From NCBI RefSeq assembly GCF_014191505.1, contig NZ_JACHWS010000002.1, positions 124,001 through 188,000 of the forward strand: 64,000 nt of DNA, given 5' to 3'. A program made the translations under genes and the position numbers. The notes beneath the pieces are model-generated. The model ran no database searches, was not told the DNA's origin, and saw only the letters and a program-made list of their open reading frames with translations. Positions 48,090-61,908 of the stretch are shown here, piece after piece. How positions within the stretch are numbered: position 1 is the stretch's first letter; each line of letters opens with the position of its first letter. Source of the DNA: Hoyosella altamirensis. GTDB taxonomy: Bacteria > Actinomycetota > Actinomycetes > Mycobacteriales > Mycobacteriaceae.

Positions 48090-48236
48090 ATGTTCGGTTC
48101 GATTCTCGATATGATCGCGGCGTTCGCGCTGTGGATCAGAGACAACGACGGCACTGGCGACTTCAGCAACTTCGAGATGGTCTTCGACATGTTCGGCGAC
48201 CTCGCTGGCTCCGTCGATGGTTTCCTCGGCTCCTAA
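48090..48236 (+). CDS. 48-residue acidic amphipathic peptide (possible mycolata small porin or surface peptide)
   Basis: This short gene encodes a 48-residue peptide that starts MFGSILDMIAAFALWIRDND and ends GDLAGSVDGFLGS. It is acidic and alternates hydrophobic and polar residues like an amphipathic helix; no signal peptide is present. GAAGGGG lies eight bases before the ATG, and a perfect 14-bp terminator hairpin follows 15 bp after the stop, so the gene forms its own transcription unit. Its size and composition recall the PorA/PorH peptides of corynebacteria (about 45-57 residues, also leaderless), but I see no clear sequence identity, so that idea is inference. A similar 40-residue peptide is encoded at 60600-60722. 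Confidence 0.65.
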   Translation: MFGSILDMIAAFALWIRDNDGTGDFSNFEMVFDMFGDLAGSVDGFLGS

Positions 48237-48397: not shown

Positions 48398-48934
48398 ATG
48401 TCTCAGACGGCAGTATCAACACACCATCGCGTTACACGCCGCCTCGCTCTCGCTGCGAGCGGCGCCCTGATAGCCGGCTCGGCGTCACTACTGGGTGCGA
48501 CGACAGCAGCAGCCGCGCCCGTGGAGTGTCCGGCGGTTCCGGGAACGGGCCCGGCAGCAACCTCTGCCACATCATCATGTTCTGCGACCGCAGACGATTC
48601 GAGCGCGGCAGCAGCATTTGGCTTTGACGGAAACGCCGCAGCGGCCGGAGAAATGTTCGGACTTTCCCTGGCGATTGCGGCGGATGGTGGTACCGCGACG
48701 AGCGCGGCGACCAACTTCTCAGGCCCCGCTGCCATTGCCATCGGCGATGGTGCAACGGCGGAAACGTGGGGCCTCAACCCGGGGCTTTCAATCGGAATCG
48801 CAGGACCGAGTGCCACTGTCATGGTCTCCGGAACCGCCGCGCCCCAGTGCATGGGCGGGCTTGCGTTCGCGGGTGATTTCCAGACAGGTAAAGGCTGCTT
48901 TTCCGACGGGATGAGCACCGTCCCTCTGGGCTGA
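48398..48934 (+). CDS. Secreted small protein of unknown function
   Basis: The 178-residue protein has a clear signal peptide: basic start (THHRVTRR), hydrophobic core (LALAASGALIAGSASLLGA) and an AAAAP cleavage region near residue 40. The mature part is Ala/Gly/Ser/Thr-rich with four cysteines (VECPAVPG, TSSCSATAD, APQCMGG, GKGCFSDG), probably two disulphides. It has beta-like repeats such as FGLSLAIAADGG and GPAAIAIGDGATAETWG, in which GLxLxIAxxG-type units recur. I do not recognise the family with certainty; mycolata contain small secreted proteins of this look (DUF6764-like is one guess). A hairpin follows the stop. Confidence 0.8.
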   Translation: MSQTAVSTHHRVTRRLALAASGALIAGSASLLGATTAAAAPVECPAVPGTGPAATSATSSCSATADDSSAAAAFGFDGNAAAAGEMFGLSLAIAADGGTATSAATNFSGPAAIAIGDGATAETWGLNPGLSIGIAGPSATVMVSGTAAPQCMGGLAFAGDFQTGKGCFSDGMSTVPLG

Positions 48935-58859: not shown

Positions 58860-59033
58860 GCTACAAAATCGTAGTCGTGTGCCCAGTCGCTGTCCTGAGT
58901 TGGGTCGGATTTACTGATGTGGGATCGCGCATACGGTCACAATCGGGACAATCGTCAGCGACTCAATTCACAGTGGTCCATACTGACCTCAGTCTCAACA
59001 CACGCACCAGTACTCAACGGTGAGGGGCTGGTT

Positions 59034-60512
59034 ATGACGGAACTAGCGGAGCCACAGCAGGTCCGCGCTGGGCGGAAGAAACGCCTGACCGAATGGTCAG
59101 CGCGTGAACTCGCCCGCGCCATCGCATCGCGACAACTCACATCACGCGAAGTCGTGCAAGAGCACATTTTGATGCTCGAGCGGAACAAGAATCTCGGTGC
59201 GATCGCGCGCGGCCGCTTCGCTGAAGCGCTTGCCGACGCCGAGCGTGCGGATGACTTTCTGGCTAGTGCGCATCGAGACACACCCATACCGCCGCTATGC
59301 GGGGTCCCGTTTACAGTCAAGGAGTTCATCGCTGTCCGGGGGTTGCCCAATTCTGCGGGCTTCCCGCACCGGCGCAACGTCATCCCCGAGGAAGACGCTC
59401 CTGCTATTGCCCGCTTGCGCGCAGCCGGCGGGATCGTCCTCGGAGTCACTAATTCAGCTGGTCCCGTCTTTTGGATGGAGACGTACAACCCCCTCTACGG
59501 GCGGGTCAACAACCCCTACGATCTGTCACGCACCGCTGGCGGCTCGTCGGGAGGCGATGGAGCCGCCGTTGCGTGCGGCGGATCACCTGTTTCGATTGGG
59601 TCGGACCTCGGCGGGTCATTGCGCATCCCCGCGTTCTTCAACGGCGTTTTCGCGCACCTGCCCTCTGTTGGCCTCGTCCCCACTACTGGACATTTCCCGA
59701 TGGCAAACGGGGATGCCCGCAGGACGCTGTTCCTGGGCCCAGTAGCCAGACGCGCTGAGGACCTTCACCTCGTTTTGAAGATCATCGGCGGTCCTCATGC
59801 GAGTGACCCTGTCTCCGCCCTGATGCCTCTCGGTGACCCCGAGAACGTTAGCCTCGCCGGGCTCCGGGTGGTGCTGGCCACCGGCGCGACACTTACCAAG
59901 CCACGGGCGGACCTCGAGACGGCGCGGTTCTTGGCAGGGCGGATGCTCGAAGCTCAAGGAGCTCAGGTCACCGAGGTTTCACTCCCTTCGCTGCGTTGGA
60001 CAATCGCCCAGGCGCTCGCGGCGCTTTCGTCAAGTCTCGACTTCGCGAGCATTGTGGCCGAAATCGTTGGCGCCTCGAATACCGCGAACCCGTCGGCTCT
60101 TCGGAGCCTCGCCACGGCGCCTGTCGCTCTGCTACGTCTCGCTGAAGCAGCGCCTGCGCGGCGCTTACGCACCCGGGCTGCCCGCCGTCTCGTCGACGGT
60201 GCTCAGAAGGCCGCGGACCACCTTACCGATCTCCTGGGAGACGGCGCGCTCCTGTTTCCGCCGTTTCCGCGGCTCGCACCCCGACACTTCACCACTTACG
60301 GACAGCCATGGCTCGCGAGCAACACGATCGTGTTCAATATCCTCGGCTTACCGGTCACTCAAGTACCCACCGGGCTTAATAGTTCTGGGCTGCCCCTTGG
60401 TCTTCAGGTGGCGGCGGCACCCGGCAACGATCACGTCGCCCTTCGTATTGCACTGGCGCTCGAGACTGGCCTCGGTGGCTGGAGCCCTCCGGCACGGCGC
60501 GTCGAATACTAG
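59034..60512 (+). CDS. Amidase-signature family hydrolase
   Basis: This serine hydrolase of the amidase-signature family has 492 residues. The catalytic Lys is in GVPFTVKEFIAVRGLPNSAG, and the Ser-Ser part in SRTAGGSSGGDGAAVACGGS followed by GSDLGGSLRIPAFFNGVFAH. The C-terminal half has the usual pattern including the late GLPLGLQVAAAPGNDHVAL. I chose the ATG at 59034 with GAGGGG nearby, giving the family N-terminus (LTEWSARELARAIASRQLTS). Fatty acid amide hydrolases, 6-aminohexanoate-type and aryl amidases share this fold; the substrate is unknown. It diverges from lpd and ends at a strong hairpin. Confidence 0.9.
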   Translation: MTELAEPQQVRAGRKKRLTEWSARELARAIASRQLTSREVVQEHILMLERNKNLGAIARGRFAEALADAERADDFLASAHRDTPIPPLCGVPFTVKEFIAVRGLPNSAGFPHRRNVIPEEDAPAIARLRAAGGIVLGVTNSAGPVFWMETYNPLYGRVNNPYDLSRTAGGSSGGDGAAVACGGSPVSIGSDLGGSLRIPAFFNGVFAHLPSVGLVPTTGHFPMANGDARRTLFLGPVARRAEDLHLVLKIIGGPHASDPVSALMPLGDPENVSLAGLRVVLATGATLTKPRADLETARFLAGRMLEAQGAQVTEVSLPSLRWTIAQALAALSSSLDFASIVAEIVGASNTANPSALRSLATAPVALLRLAEAAPARRLRTRAARRLVDGAQKAADHLTDLLGDGALLFPPFPRLAPRHFTTYGQPWLASNTIVFNILGLPVTQVPTGLNSSGLPLGLQVAAAPGNDHVALRIALALETGLGGWSPPARRVEY

Positions 60513-60525
60513 GCCGCACAACAGA

Positions 60526-60559
60526 CAAGGCGCCCGAAGCGTGTAGCCCGGGCGCCTTG
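60526..60559. terminator. 11-bp-stem hairpin between amidase and small peptide gene
   Basis: CAAGGCGCCCG and CGGGCGCCTTG pair perfectly around a 12-base loop, 14 bp after the amidase stop and 41 bp after the end of the convergent small-peptide gene. It suits both as a terminator. Confidence 0.75.
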
Positions 60560-60599
60560 TCGGCTTCAGTCAGCGGAGACCGATAGACGGTCTCCGGCA

Positions 60600-60722
60600 T
60601 CAGCTGAGGAAGGTGAAGCCTCCGTCGCCACCGGCTTCTCCACCGCCACCGAAGAAGTCGAAGAAGTTGAAGAACGCATCAAACATCGCGCCGAAGTCGG
60701 CAAAAGCTTCCAGGCTTCCCAT
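60600..60722 (-). CDS. 40-residue Phe/Gly/Asp-rich peptide (possible small surface or porin-like peptide)
   Basis: This gene is too short for standard calling. The peptide starts MGSLEAFADFGAMFDAFFNF, continues with FDFFGGGG and ends GGDGGFTFLS. Its N-terminal 24 residues are a strongly amphipathic, acidic, phenylalanine-rich helix, followed by a glycine-rich tail. AGGAG lies six bases before the ATG, an ideal ribosome site, and the gene has its own AT-rich upstream region and a downstream hairpin. Its size and character resemble the leaderless small porins of mycolata or a bacteriocin-like peptide; I cannot decide, and no homologue is recalled. The 48-residue peptide at 48090 has a similar FGxMFD-type mix. 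Confidence 0.7.
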   Translation of the reverse strand: MGSLEAFADFGAMFDAFFNFFDFFGGGGEAGGDGGFTFLS

Positions 60723-61074
60723 GTTCACTCCTGTGTGATTGAAAACAGATTCCCTACATAGGCCCCATATGGCGCCCAAGGATATTGGAACATTTGGGGC
60801 TCAAATTTGGAAGAGCAATACCATAATTGTACGTGTACTTTTATCACGGACAGATCACAGTTGATTACCGTGAAATTCACAACAGTGGGTGGAATAAATA
60901 GTGTGAAGCGCACATTAGTTCTGCTAATAAATTTTCGTACGGGTTAATCCATTATTAGGGGTATTGAGCAAACAGCGCCTGAAACGCCAGGTAGTGGAAG
61001 GCAGTTGCAGTAGGCCGGTGCGAAACCGCTACCCTAATCGAACATTAACGACGGCCCGATAGTAAAGAGAGAAC
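60723..61074. other. 352-bp AT-rich non-coding region
   Basis: No gene is supported. The first 230 bp are strikingly AT-rich compared with the surrounding genome, with stretches such as AAATTTGG, ACTTTTATCA and GCTAATAAATTTTCGTAC. It probably holds the promoter of the 40-residue peptide gene, in an extended regulatory region, and may bind nucleoid proteins such as Lsr2. Confidence 0.55.
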
Positions 61075-61908
61075 TCAACTCAACCCCTCGAGCCAGTCCT
61101 TTATCCGGGCGACTGTCGTGGCGGGTTCCCGAATCCAGCCGACGTGACCTAGCGGCTGAGTGTTGCGCCACGACGTGACCCTCGCGGACTGCAGTTTGTT
61201 GACTAGGTTTTTGACAGACTGCCCAGGAGCCAGCTCATCGCGCGCAACGGAGACAGCCAGCACAGGTAGATCGATCTCAGCGATTCGTTCTTCGTAGTCG
61301 ATATCAGCGCCTGTGGGCGCCATCCGTCCCGTACGGGCGAACCTCGACCAATCGGTGATGAGTGTCTTGGATTGGGGCCCGAAACCCGCGAAGTTCACTT
61401 TGTCCCCCGGCCAGTAACCAGCGATGTTGGCGGTAAGCGACATCGCTTGCGCACCGATTAGTGGCCCGAACACGCGCGCTCCCGGGAAGCCTTTGAAATA
61501 TGGGGACCCTGCCGCCACGAGAATCAGCCCACCCAGATTGTGCCCAACCCGCGCGGCGAACATCACTGCCAGCTGACCACCAACGGAGTGGCCGAGCAGA
61601 AAAGGGGTGCTTGCGGGAAACTGCTCACGCGCGACTTCCAGCACAGCGGGGAAATCAACGGTAAGCATTTCCTGGTATCCGAAGGAACTTTCCCGGCTAG
61701 GACTGGGTTCGCTGGCCCCTTGGCCTCGCAATTCAGCAACTACGACGTTGATACCGTGTTCTGTAAGCGCTGTGGCAAACGGATCGTAGTAGCTGGCTGA
61801 TAGCCCGAATCCCGGCCACACCACGATCACCGGCGCACCTTCTGACGCTTCGAAGACGCGGACAGGCGTGACACTCGAGTCAGGCATCTGTACCGGGATG
61901 GTGATCAC
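61075..61908 (-). CDS. Alpha/beta hydrolase (serine aminopeptidase S33 type)
   Basis: The 277-residue protein has the alpha/beta hydrolase pattern: VIVVWPGFGLSASYYDPFAT in place of the usual HG oxyanion motif, VVVAELRGQGASEP, the nucleophile elbow FLLGHSVGGQLAVMFAARVG, the acid region LAVSVARDELAPG and His in QPLGHVGWIREP. It resembles the YheT/S33-type hydrolases of mycolata that are said to be lysophospholipase-like; the substrate is unknown. The gene lies between the AT-rich region and the 5S rRNA gene, on the same strand as the ribosomal operon but after its terminator. Confidence 0.86.
   Translation of the reverse strand: MITIPVQMPDSSVTPVRVFEASEGAPVIVVWPGFGLSASYYDPFATALTEHGINVVVAELRGQGASEPSPSRESSFGYQEMLTVDFPAVLEVAREQFPASTPFLLGHSVGGQLAVMFAARVGHNLGGLILVAAGSPYFKGFPGARVFGPLIGAQAMSLTANIAGYWPGDKVNFAGFGPQSKTLITDWSRFARTGRMAPTGADIDYEERIAEIDLPVLAVSVARDELAPGQSVKNLVNKLQSARVTSWRNTQPLGHVGWIREPATTVARIKDWLEGLS

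Follow-up and report, generated by a model that had tools for sequence, protein, structure and literature searches.

The window, a 64,000-nucleotide stretch of the Hoyosella altamirensis genome that ends in 5S and 23S rRNA genes, carries on its minus strand a short open reading frame (60722 to 60600) whose translation is the 40-residue peptide MGSLEAFADFGAMFDAFFNFFDFFGGGGEAGGDGGFTFLS, hereafter the 40-mer. The initial annotation had placed this peptide correctly without naming the strand, and most of what it said of the flanks is borne out by the sequence. The AGGAG motif ahead of the ATG is present, at a spacing of five bases rather than the six that had been given, and the upstream region is indeed AT-rich, with a G+C content of 0.40-0.43 over 60700-60999 against 0.61-0.69 over 60000-60599 (200-base windows). 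In total, a gap of 352 nt separates the gene from the hydrolase-like ORF upstream, and a consensus scan of this gap returned no sigma-70-like promoter match. A hairpin does follow the gene: the 96 nt from 60515 to 60610, which take in the last 11 bases of the coding sequence and the sequence beyond, fold at -53.8 kcal/mol (z = -6.6), a value matched by 0/200 shuffles. Two stems make up this fold, both in the interval that separates the stop codon of the 40-mer from the 3' end of the amidase-like ORF, which converges on it (Table 1). The longer stem has a weak T tail and is absent from the consensus terminator scan; it may perhaps act as a common terminator of the 40-mer and amidase-like genes.

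Table 1. Features of the 40-mer locus and of a second small-peptide gene in the window.
Feature	Position	Strand	Basis
Gene for leaderless, acidic, Phe/Gly-rich 40-residue peptide (stop included)	60600..60722	-	Translation, orthologues, synonymous-only change
Shine-Dalgarno AGGAG, 5 nt before ATG	60728..60732	-	AGGAG 5-6 nt from ATG in 4/4 orthologues
Codons of predicted amphipathic helix, residues 3-25	60648..60716	-	AlphaFold2 model and hydrophobic moment
Codons of the tail (residues 25-40), Gly-rich and acidic; GGGGE and the C-terminal Ser are invariant	60603..60650	-	Orthologue alignment
G+C-rich hairpin 3' of the 40-mer gene, likely terminator	60524..60561	-	Fold z -6.6; strong downstream hairpins in the other three genomes
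Small stem directly past the stop codon	60575..60595	-	Folding
AT-rich intergenic region, presumed promoter region	60733..61074	-	G+C windows
Amidase-like ORF, convergent neighbour	58917..60512	+	Named by eye from sequence
Alpha/beta-hydrolase-like ORF next upstream of the 40-mer gene, same strand	61075..61908	-	Named by eye from sequence
Second leaderless peptide, 48 residues, possible partner	48090..48236	+	Orthologues in g1 and g21; two-helix model

Judged by comparison with its relatives, the ORF is a real, conserved gene. The H. subflava protein is identical to the 40-mer, and all 11 of the codons that differ between the two genes differ synonymously, with no non-synonymous change. Among all single changes of the coding sequence 21% are synonymous (33% of transitions), which gives this outcome a probability of about 4e-8, or 6e-6 when transitions only are counted. 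Identity between the two coding sequences is 109/120 bases; over the flanking 100 nt it is 69/94 aligned bases on the upstream side and 74/94 on the downstream side. More divergent forms occur in Hoyosella sp. YIM 151337 (G001, 73% identity) and in Hoyosella rhizosphaerae (G079, 68%), the latter placed by the genome collection in genus g21, with g1 as the Hoyosella genus. Across the four sequences 21 of 40 alignment columns are invariant, including MGSLE, AFF (residues 16-18), GGGGE and S40; S3 and S40 are the same in 4/4, and all four genomes keep an ATG with AGGAG 5-6 bases ahead of it. Of the outcomes that the initial annotation had named as fatal to the gene, neither non-conservation nor frame disruption was encountered: there are four orthologues, and change relative to H. 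subflava is synonymous only.

The surroundings of the gene are less constant than the gene itself. In three genomes the orthologue adjoins an amidase/hydrolase pair; the exception is H. rhizosphaerae, where the gene is flanked by other genes than in g1 and has its own AGGAG and its own hairpin, followed by TACTGTTTTTG (a T5 tail). We therefore regard the 40-mer gene as a self-contained unit, independent of lpd, of the amidase and of rrn. Since the neighbours of the orthologues are not constant, lpd and rrn are unlikely to be linked to it in function. By eye, an ABC-transporter-like ORF of iron or heme type lies near the H. rhizosphaerae gene (L052, L004), with a heme-oxygenase-like ORF ~3 kb from it.

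The minus-strand ORF is overlapped by a Pro/Lys-rich antisense mirror frame, at 60613-60738 (+), that is open in all four orthologues and has 1/39 codons changed between H. altamirensis and H. subflava. Its openness follows from the wobble positions that it shares with the sense frame. The sense frame outscores it in all three comparisons (217 v 196, 149 v 141 and 137 v 120), and we rejected the antisense ORF, whose start codon in the window is not conserved in YIM 151337 and H. rhizosphaerae. A leader peptide or attenuator was likewise rejected, the next gene past the hairpin being the convergent amidase-like one. Set against 11 synonymous and no other changes, an AGGAG-ATG common to the four genomes, and a gene retained with its own hairpin in a second setting, the suggestion that the ORF is no gene at all, only a chance frame, a leader of the hairpin or an antisense shadow, can be put aside as having a negligible chance of being right.

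A profile of the four sequences was run over 401 genomes of the family, and that family only. Nine of the 401 genomes gave a match at E <= 0.05, and four of these were strong, namely 3/3 genomes of g1 and 1/4 of g21. Because the other three g21 genomes had no match at E <= 0.5, the 40-mer is, as far as these sequences tell, dispensable or replaced in g21. A profile match in G120 was rejected as chance, sitting within a 325-aa frame, as was one in G020 that covers the Gly-rich tail alone (residues 21-37) within a frame of 67 aa that lies opposite a long ORF; from the first similarity search, 41 of the 45 matching genomes were discarded by table rather than by individual inspection, the open frames being at least 105 aa long. 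Pfam and NCBIfam held no match for the 40-mer, the H. rhizosphaerae peptide or the 48- and 34-residue peptides discussed below. The four-row profile found no sequence match in the PDB, and tblastn found no copy among phage and plasmid sequences. In the genome contig collection 220 pattern stretches for the 40-mer were obtained, none of them confirmed by tblastn, perhaps through low-complexity filtering of an F/G-rich query; a DNA pattern of AGGAG plus the first residues gave seven stretches in the same collection, two from Hoyosella and five with unlike products.

Structure prediction agrees with the earlier description of an acidic, Phe-rich amphipathic N-terminal helix followed by a Gly tail. 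AlphaFold2, run on the four-row alignment as a single chain, returned one helix spanning residues 3-25, with a pLDDT of 80-84 over residues 1-20 and of 64 and 49 in the last two blocks, where the tail is uncertain; the mean of 69 corresponds to moderate confidence. One side of a helical wheel worked out by hand is occupied by E5, D9, D15, N19 and D22, the other by almost all the Phe residues, and the hydrophobic moment is 0.66 over the 11-residue window FDAFFNFFDFF. For residues 4-24, shuffles reached as high a moment in 204 cases per 10000 for H. altamirensis, 185 for H. subflava, 209 for YIM 151337 and 4 for H. rhizosphaerae. The net charge is -6 (-5 in YIM 151337), and by inspection the peptide has no basic N-region or cleavage-type leader.

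Peptides of similar build have been described in Corynebacterium, where leaderless helical pore peptides of 37-57 residues include PorACj (40), PorACur (37) and PorA/PorH (45/57) (PMC3792995, PMC5944148, PMC11927696, PMC5310785). The C. glutamicum PorA and PorH are reported to lack a signal sequence, to reside in the mycolate layer, to be mycoloylated on Ser (PMC11927696, PMC5310785) and to be mostly alpha-helical (PMC9233653). PorACj of C. jeikeium (jk0268) is described as 40 residues without a presequence, forming a two-faced amphipathic helix, and as homo-oligomeric with heptad-type amphipathic helices (PMC3792995). The likeness is one of description, and there are differences: PorACj lies between groEL2 and ppk2 and is anion-selective as reported (PMC3792995), whereas the 40-mer is acidic and has a Gly-rich C end. 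PorACur of C. urealyticum, again likened by description and not by sequence, has 37 residues and a predicted helix whose lumen side carries acidic residues and one Lys; it is reported as cation-selective and, unlike the 40-mer, lies at the groEL2-ppk2 locus (PMC5944148). The phrase 'restricted to Corynebacterium' in PMC12021427 refers to PS2 and not to PorA/PorH.

The 40-mer resembles the PorA/PorH type in being shorter than 60 residues, in starting at its own Met, in showing no signal sequence by inspection and, by prediction, in forming an amphipathic alpha-helix (3-25). Sequence and locus give the opposite answer. Neither the 40-mer nor the H. rhizosphaerae peptide matches the NCBIfam models for PorA (NF033925) or PorH (NF033938), and the gene does not lie between groEL2 and ppk2, its neighbours being the amidase-like and hydrolase-like ORFs and rRNA. 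By sequence, therefore, the 40-mer is not a PorA or a PorH. None of the seven g1 and g21 genomes exceeded the cut-off of either model. The PorH model did so in two of the 15 genomes tested, both of g3, a genus that seems to fit Corynebacterium and the only one of six tested with such a match. The PorA model is narrow, since not one of the 15 genomes, three of g3 among them, passed its cut-off; a PorA-model match in the H. altamirensis genome (G000; E 0.15) spans two stop codons and was taken as chance.

Direct comparisons of the 40-mer with individual peptides were scored against shuffled sequences. For a provisional C. glutamicum PorH sequence, 5 per 1000 class-preserving shuffles scored as high with the H. 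altamirensis peptide, 11 with that of YIM 151337 and 154 with that of H. rhizosphaerae; for a provisional PorA sequence, the corresponding counts were 201, 228 and 253 per 1000 plain shuffles. Three Corynebacterium-type peptides (G004, G054) gave 0 to 527 per 1000 class-preserving shuffles. The class-preserving series comprised 15 tests, the 34-residue peptide included, on five of the 10 plain-shuffle targets; the targets outside it were the provisional PorA, two forms of the 48-residue peptide, and a PorH and a PorA from G054. Direct similarity to the Corynebacterium proteins is weak and inconsistent, and is compatible with remote descent or with none. PorACj itself has 11.1% (PorA) and 13.6% (PorH) conserved residues (PMC3792995), and the failure by sequence therefore weighs little against a PorA/PorH-like way of working.

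Hoyosella is a mycolate genus (PMC6113628) and therefore possesses an outer mycolate layer in need of solute pores. MspA (PF09203) is, like the proposed 40-mer pore, an outer-membrane pore of mycolate bacteria; it differs in being a signal-peptide-bearing beta-barrel octamer (PMC9233653), whereas the 40-mer has 40 residues and no Pfam match. Across the family MspA was matched in 311 of the 401 genomes, which represent 26 of the 31 genera sampled, and in none of the three Hoyosella (g1) or four g21 genomes. The strong 40-mer matches among the 401 genomes are limited to these two MspA-less genera. Five of the 31 genera lack an MspA match (g1, g4, g12, g18 and g21), and g4, g12 and g18 have no PorH-model match either (2, 1 and 2 genomes tested); among the 15 g3 genomes that appear in the listed matches, two have a listed MspA match and 13 do not. 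Hoyosella may have other pores, for example of the DUF3068-type PorA or the PorB/C type. We found no report of a Hoyosella porin in the open-licence literature, and one may exist elsewhere.

The most likely reading of these data is that the 40-mer is a mycomembrane pore or envelope peptide, because it matches the Corynebacterium peptides in length, in the lack of a visible leader, in its predicted helix and in its C-end Ser. The initial annotation had offered a membrane-active surface peptide, a small porin or a bacteriocin-like molecule. Conservation, the predicted helix, an N-terminus in which no leader is visible, the mycolic acids of the host and the failure to find MspA favour the small-porin or mycomembrane branch of that proposal; the bacteriocin branch has little support. 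To the narrower statement that the 40-mer is a leaderless helical pore peptide of the mycomembrane, working like PorA/PorH, we give an even chance. Everything beyond the gene and its predicted helix, that is the location in the mycomembrane, the oligomer, the pore, its selectivity, mycoloylation and any partner, we infer.

In the mechanism that we propose, the leaderless peptide would be exported to the mycolic-acid outer membrane, where residues 3-25 would form one amphipathic helix of about 34 Å (at 1.5 Å per residue), enough for a thin membrane. Several copies would associate laterally, with the Phe face packed against lipid, the acidic stripe (E5, D9, D15, N19 and D22) lining a water-filled, probably cation-selective pore, and the flexible Gly/acidic tail placed at one pore mouth. 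The 40-mer would then serve among the small-solute pores of Hoyosella, either alone, as PorACj does, or with a second peptide such as the 48-residue one, as PorA does with PorH. The invariant C-terminal Ser would be the likeliest site of O-mycoloylation, by analogy with the penultimate residues modified in PorH (Ser56) and ProtX (Ser37) (PMC5310785). O-mycoloylation is reportedly required for the targeting of porins in C. glutamicum (PMC12021427). Channel activity there reportedly needs mycoloylation of PorA at Ser15, in an internal loop, while that of PorH is dispensable (PMC5310785). The 40-mer has Ser at S3 and S40 only, and no internal Ser like Ser15 of PorA; the role suggested for the tail Ser is weakened, because the needed modification is the internal one of PorA and that of PorH can be dispensed with.

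The possible partner is the second leaderless peptide of the window, the 48-mer, which on sequence grounds is a real family present in 7/7 g1 and g21 genomes. It is identical in H. subflava (G002) and 79% identical in YIM 151337, and each of the four g21 genomes has a form of 44 aa. Its profile gave matches at E <= 0.05 in 12 of the 401 genomes, seven of them strong (3/3 of g1 and 4/4 of g21); the remaining five fall within frames of at least 335 aa. A second weak match (E 0.016, L032), which by eye overlaps a desaturase-like ORF, was taken as chance. The 48-mer is modelled as two helices (mean pLDDT 69), lacks a visible leader and has GS at its C end. By eye, its gene is followed by an inverted repeat and then by a 178-aa, secreted-looking, Ala-rich ORF (48398-48934).

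The initial annotation held that the 40-mer shares its character with the 48-mer. In build the two are alike; in sequence their homology is unconvincing, hhalign giving a probability of 2% (E 0.024 over 7 columns) and shuffles scoring as high in 440 (H. altamirensis), 675 (YIM 151337) and 26 (H. rhizosphaerae) cases per 1000. We rejected homology between them as unproven on these results. The genes are 12.4 kb apart rather than in tandem as porH and porA are, and three g21 genomes have the 48-mer family without the 40-mer. A PorA/PorH-like pairing of the two peptides is possible and attractive, but the distance, the lack of convincing kinship and the 48-mer-only genomes speak against it.

The present results fit equally well a mycomembrane peptide that forms no pore, a mycoloylated envelope component like ProtX that would anchor or stabilise the mycolate layer. 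ProtX of C. glutamicum (cg2875), likened to the 40-mer by description and not by sequence, is a 38-aa protein mycoloylated at its penultimate Ser37, with a function given as unknown (PMC5310785); the 40-mer is of nearly the same length and has a C-terminal Ser. The very Phe-rich helix, with few charges on its polar face, would suit such a structural role. A genus in which MspA is not found would, however, still need solute pores, and we consider a purely structural function unlikely, though well worth keeping in mind. Many conserved bacterial proteins of fewer than 50 residues are small inner-membrane or cytoplasmic regulators, and an amphipathic helix would suit peripheral membrane binding, so that the 40-mer could instead be a regulatory peptide that binds the inner leaflet or some protein partner. 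It has no fixed neighbour gene, as the different surroundings in H. rhizosphaerae attest, and its strong matches lie in just two genera, both of the mycolate family that the profile search covered; we regard a regulatory role as improbable. Phenol-soluble modulins are leaderless peptides of comparable build, and a leaderless amphipathic helix with a strong Shine-Dalgarno sequence and a hairpin of its own might belong to a secreted surfactant or antimicrobial peptide. The net charge of -6, the lack of an export or immunity gene among the adjoining ORFs of the window (amidase-like and hydrolase-like, by eye), the identity of the protein in two species with 0/11 codon changes altering it, and the want of a phage or plasmid copy make this quite improbable.

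If the 40-mer is a mycomembrane pore peptide, it could account for the uptake of small hydrophilic solutes by Hoyosella and would offer a compact scaffold for pore peptides. More generally, we tentatively suggest, with rather less than even confidence, that Hoyosella and g21 gave up MspA and use separately evolved, tiny, leaderless helical pores, the 40-mer and 48-mer families among them. Should this be true, short helical porins would recur across mycolate bacteria and would not be a Corynebacterium speciality. In the papers cited here, Corynebacterium is the only genus in which such peptides were studied. Another genus whose peptide set shows no clear sequence kinship to the known ones, and in which no MspA is detected, would provide an independent test of which features are needed, with length, the acidic stripe and the C-terminal Ser all open to comparison, and would bear on how leaderless peptides get to the mycomembrane and how short helices form stable pores.

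On the same assumption, a 34-residue peptide of genus g24 would be a relic or a relative of these pores. This leaderless peptide, MPSSSDISDFLGAFSALFSFLDFISGSVEGVMPK/Q, is preceded by AGGAG (L035 1366-1584 and L036 1366-1584, plus strand; L037, minus strand) and occurs in three g24 genomes (G164, G212 and G221), with an E of about 0.006 to the 40-mer profile. Its core, DFLGAFSALFSFLDF, resembles that of the 40-mer. It differs in having neither the Gly tail nor the C-terminal Ser, and its hosts also carry MspA. Against the 34-mer, 1 (H. altamirensis), 0 (YIM 151337) and 14 (H. rhizosphaerae) per 1000 class-preserving shuffles scored as high, counts that are not independent, since the 34-mer was itself picked by the profile search. 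Comparison of the three g24 genes shows 2 synonymous codon changes and 0 others for one pair; for the remaining two pairs the numbers are 3 and 1.
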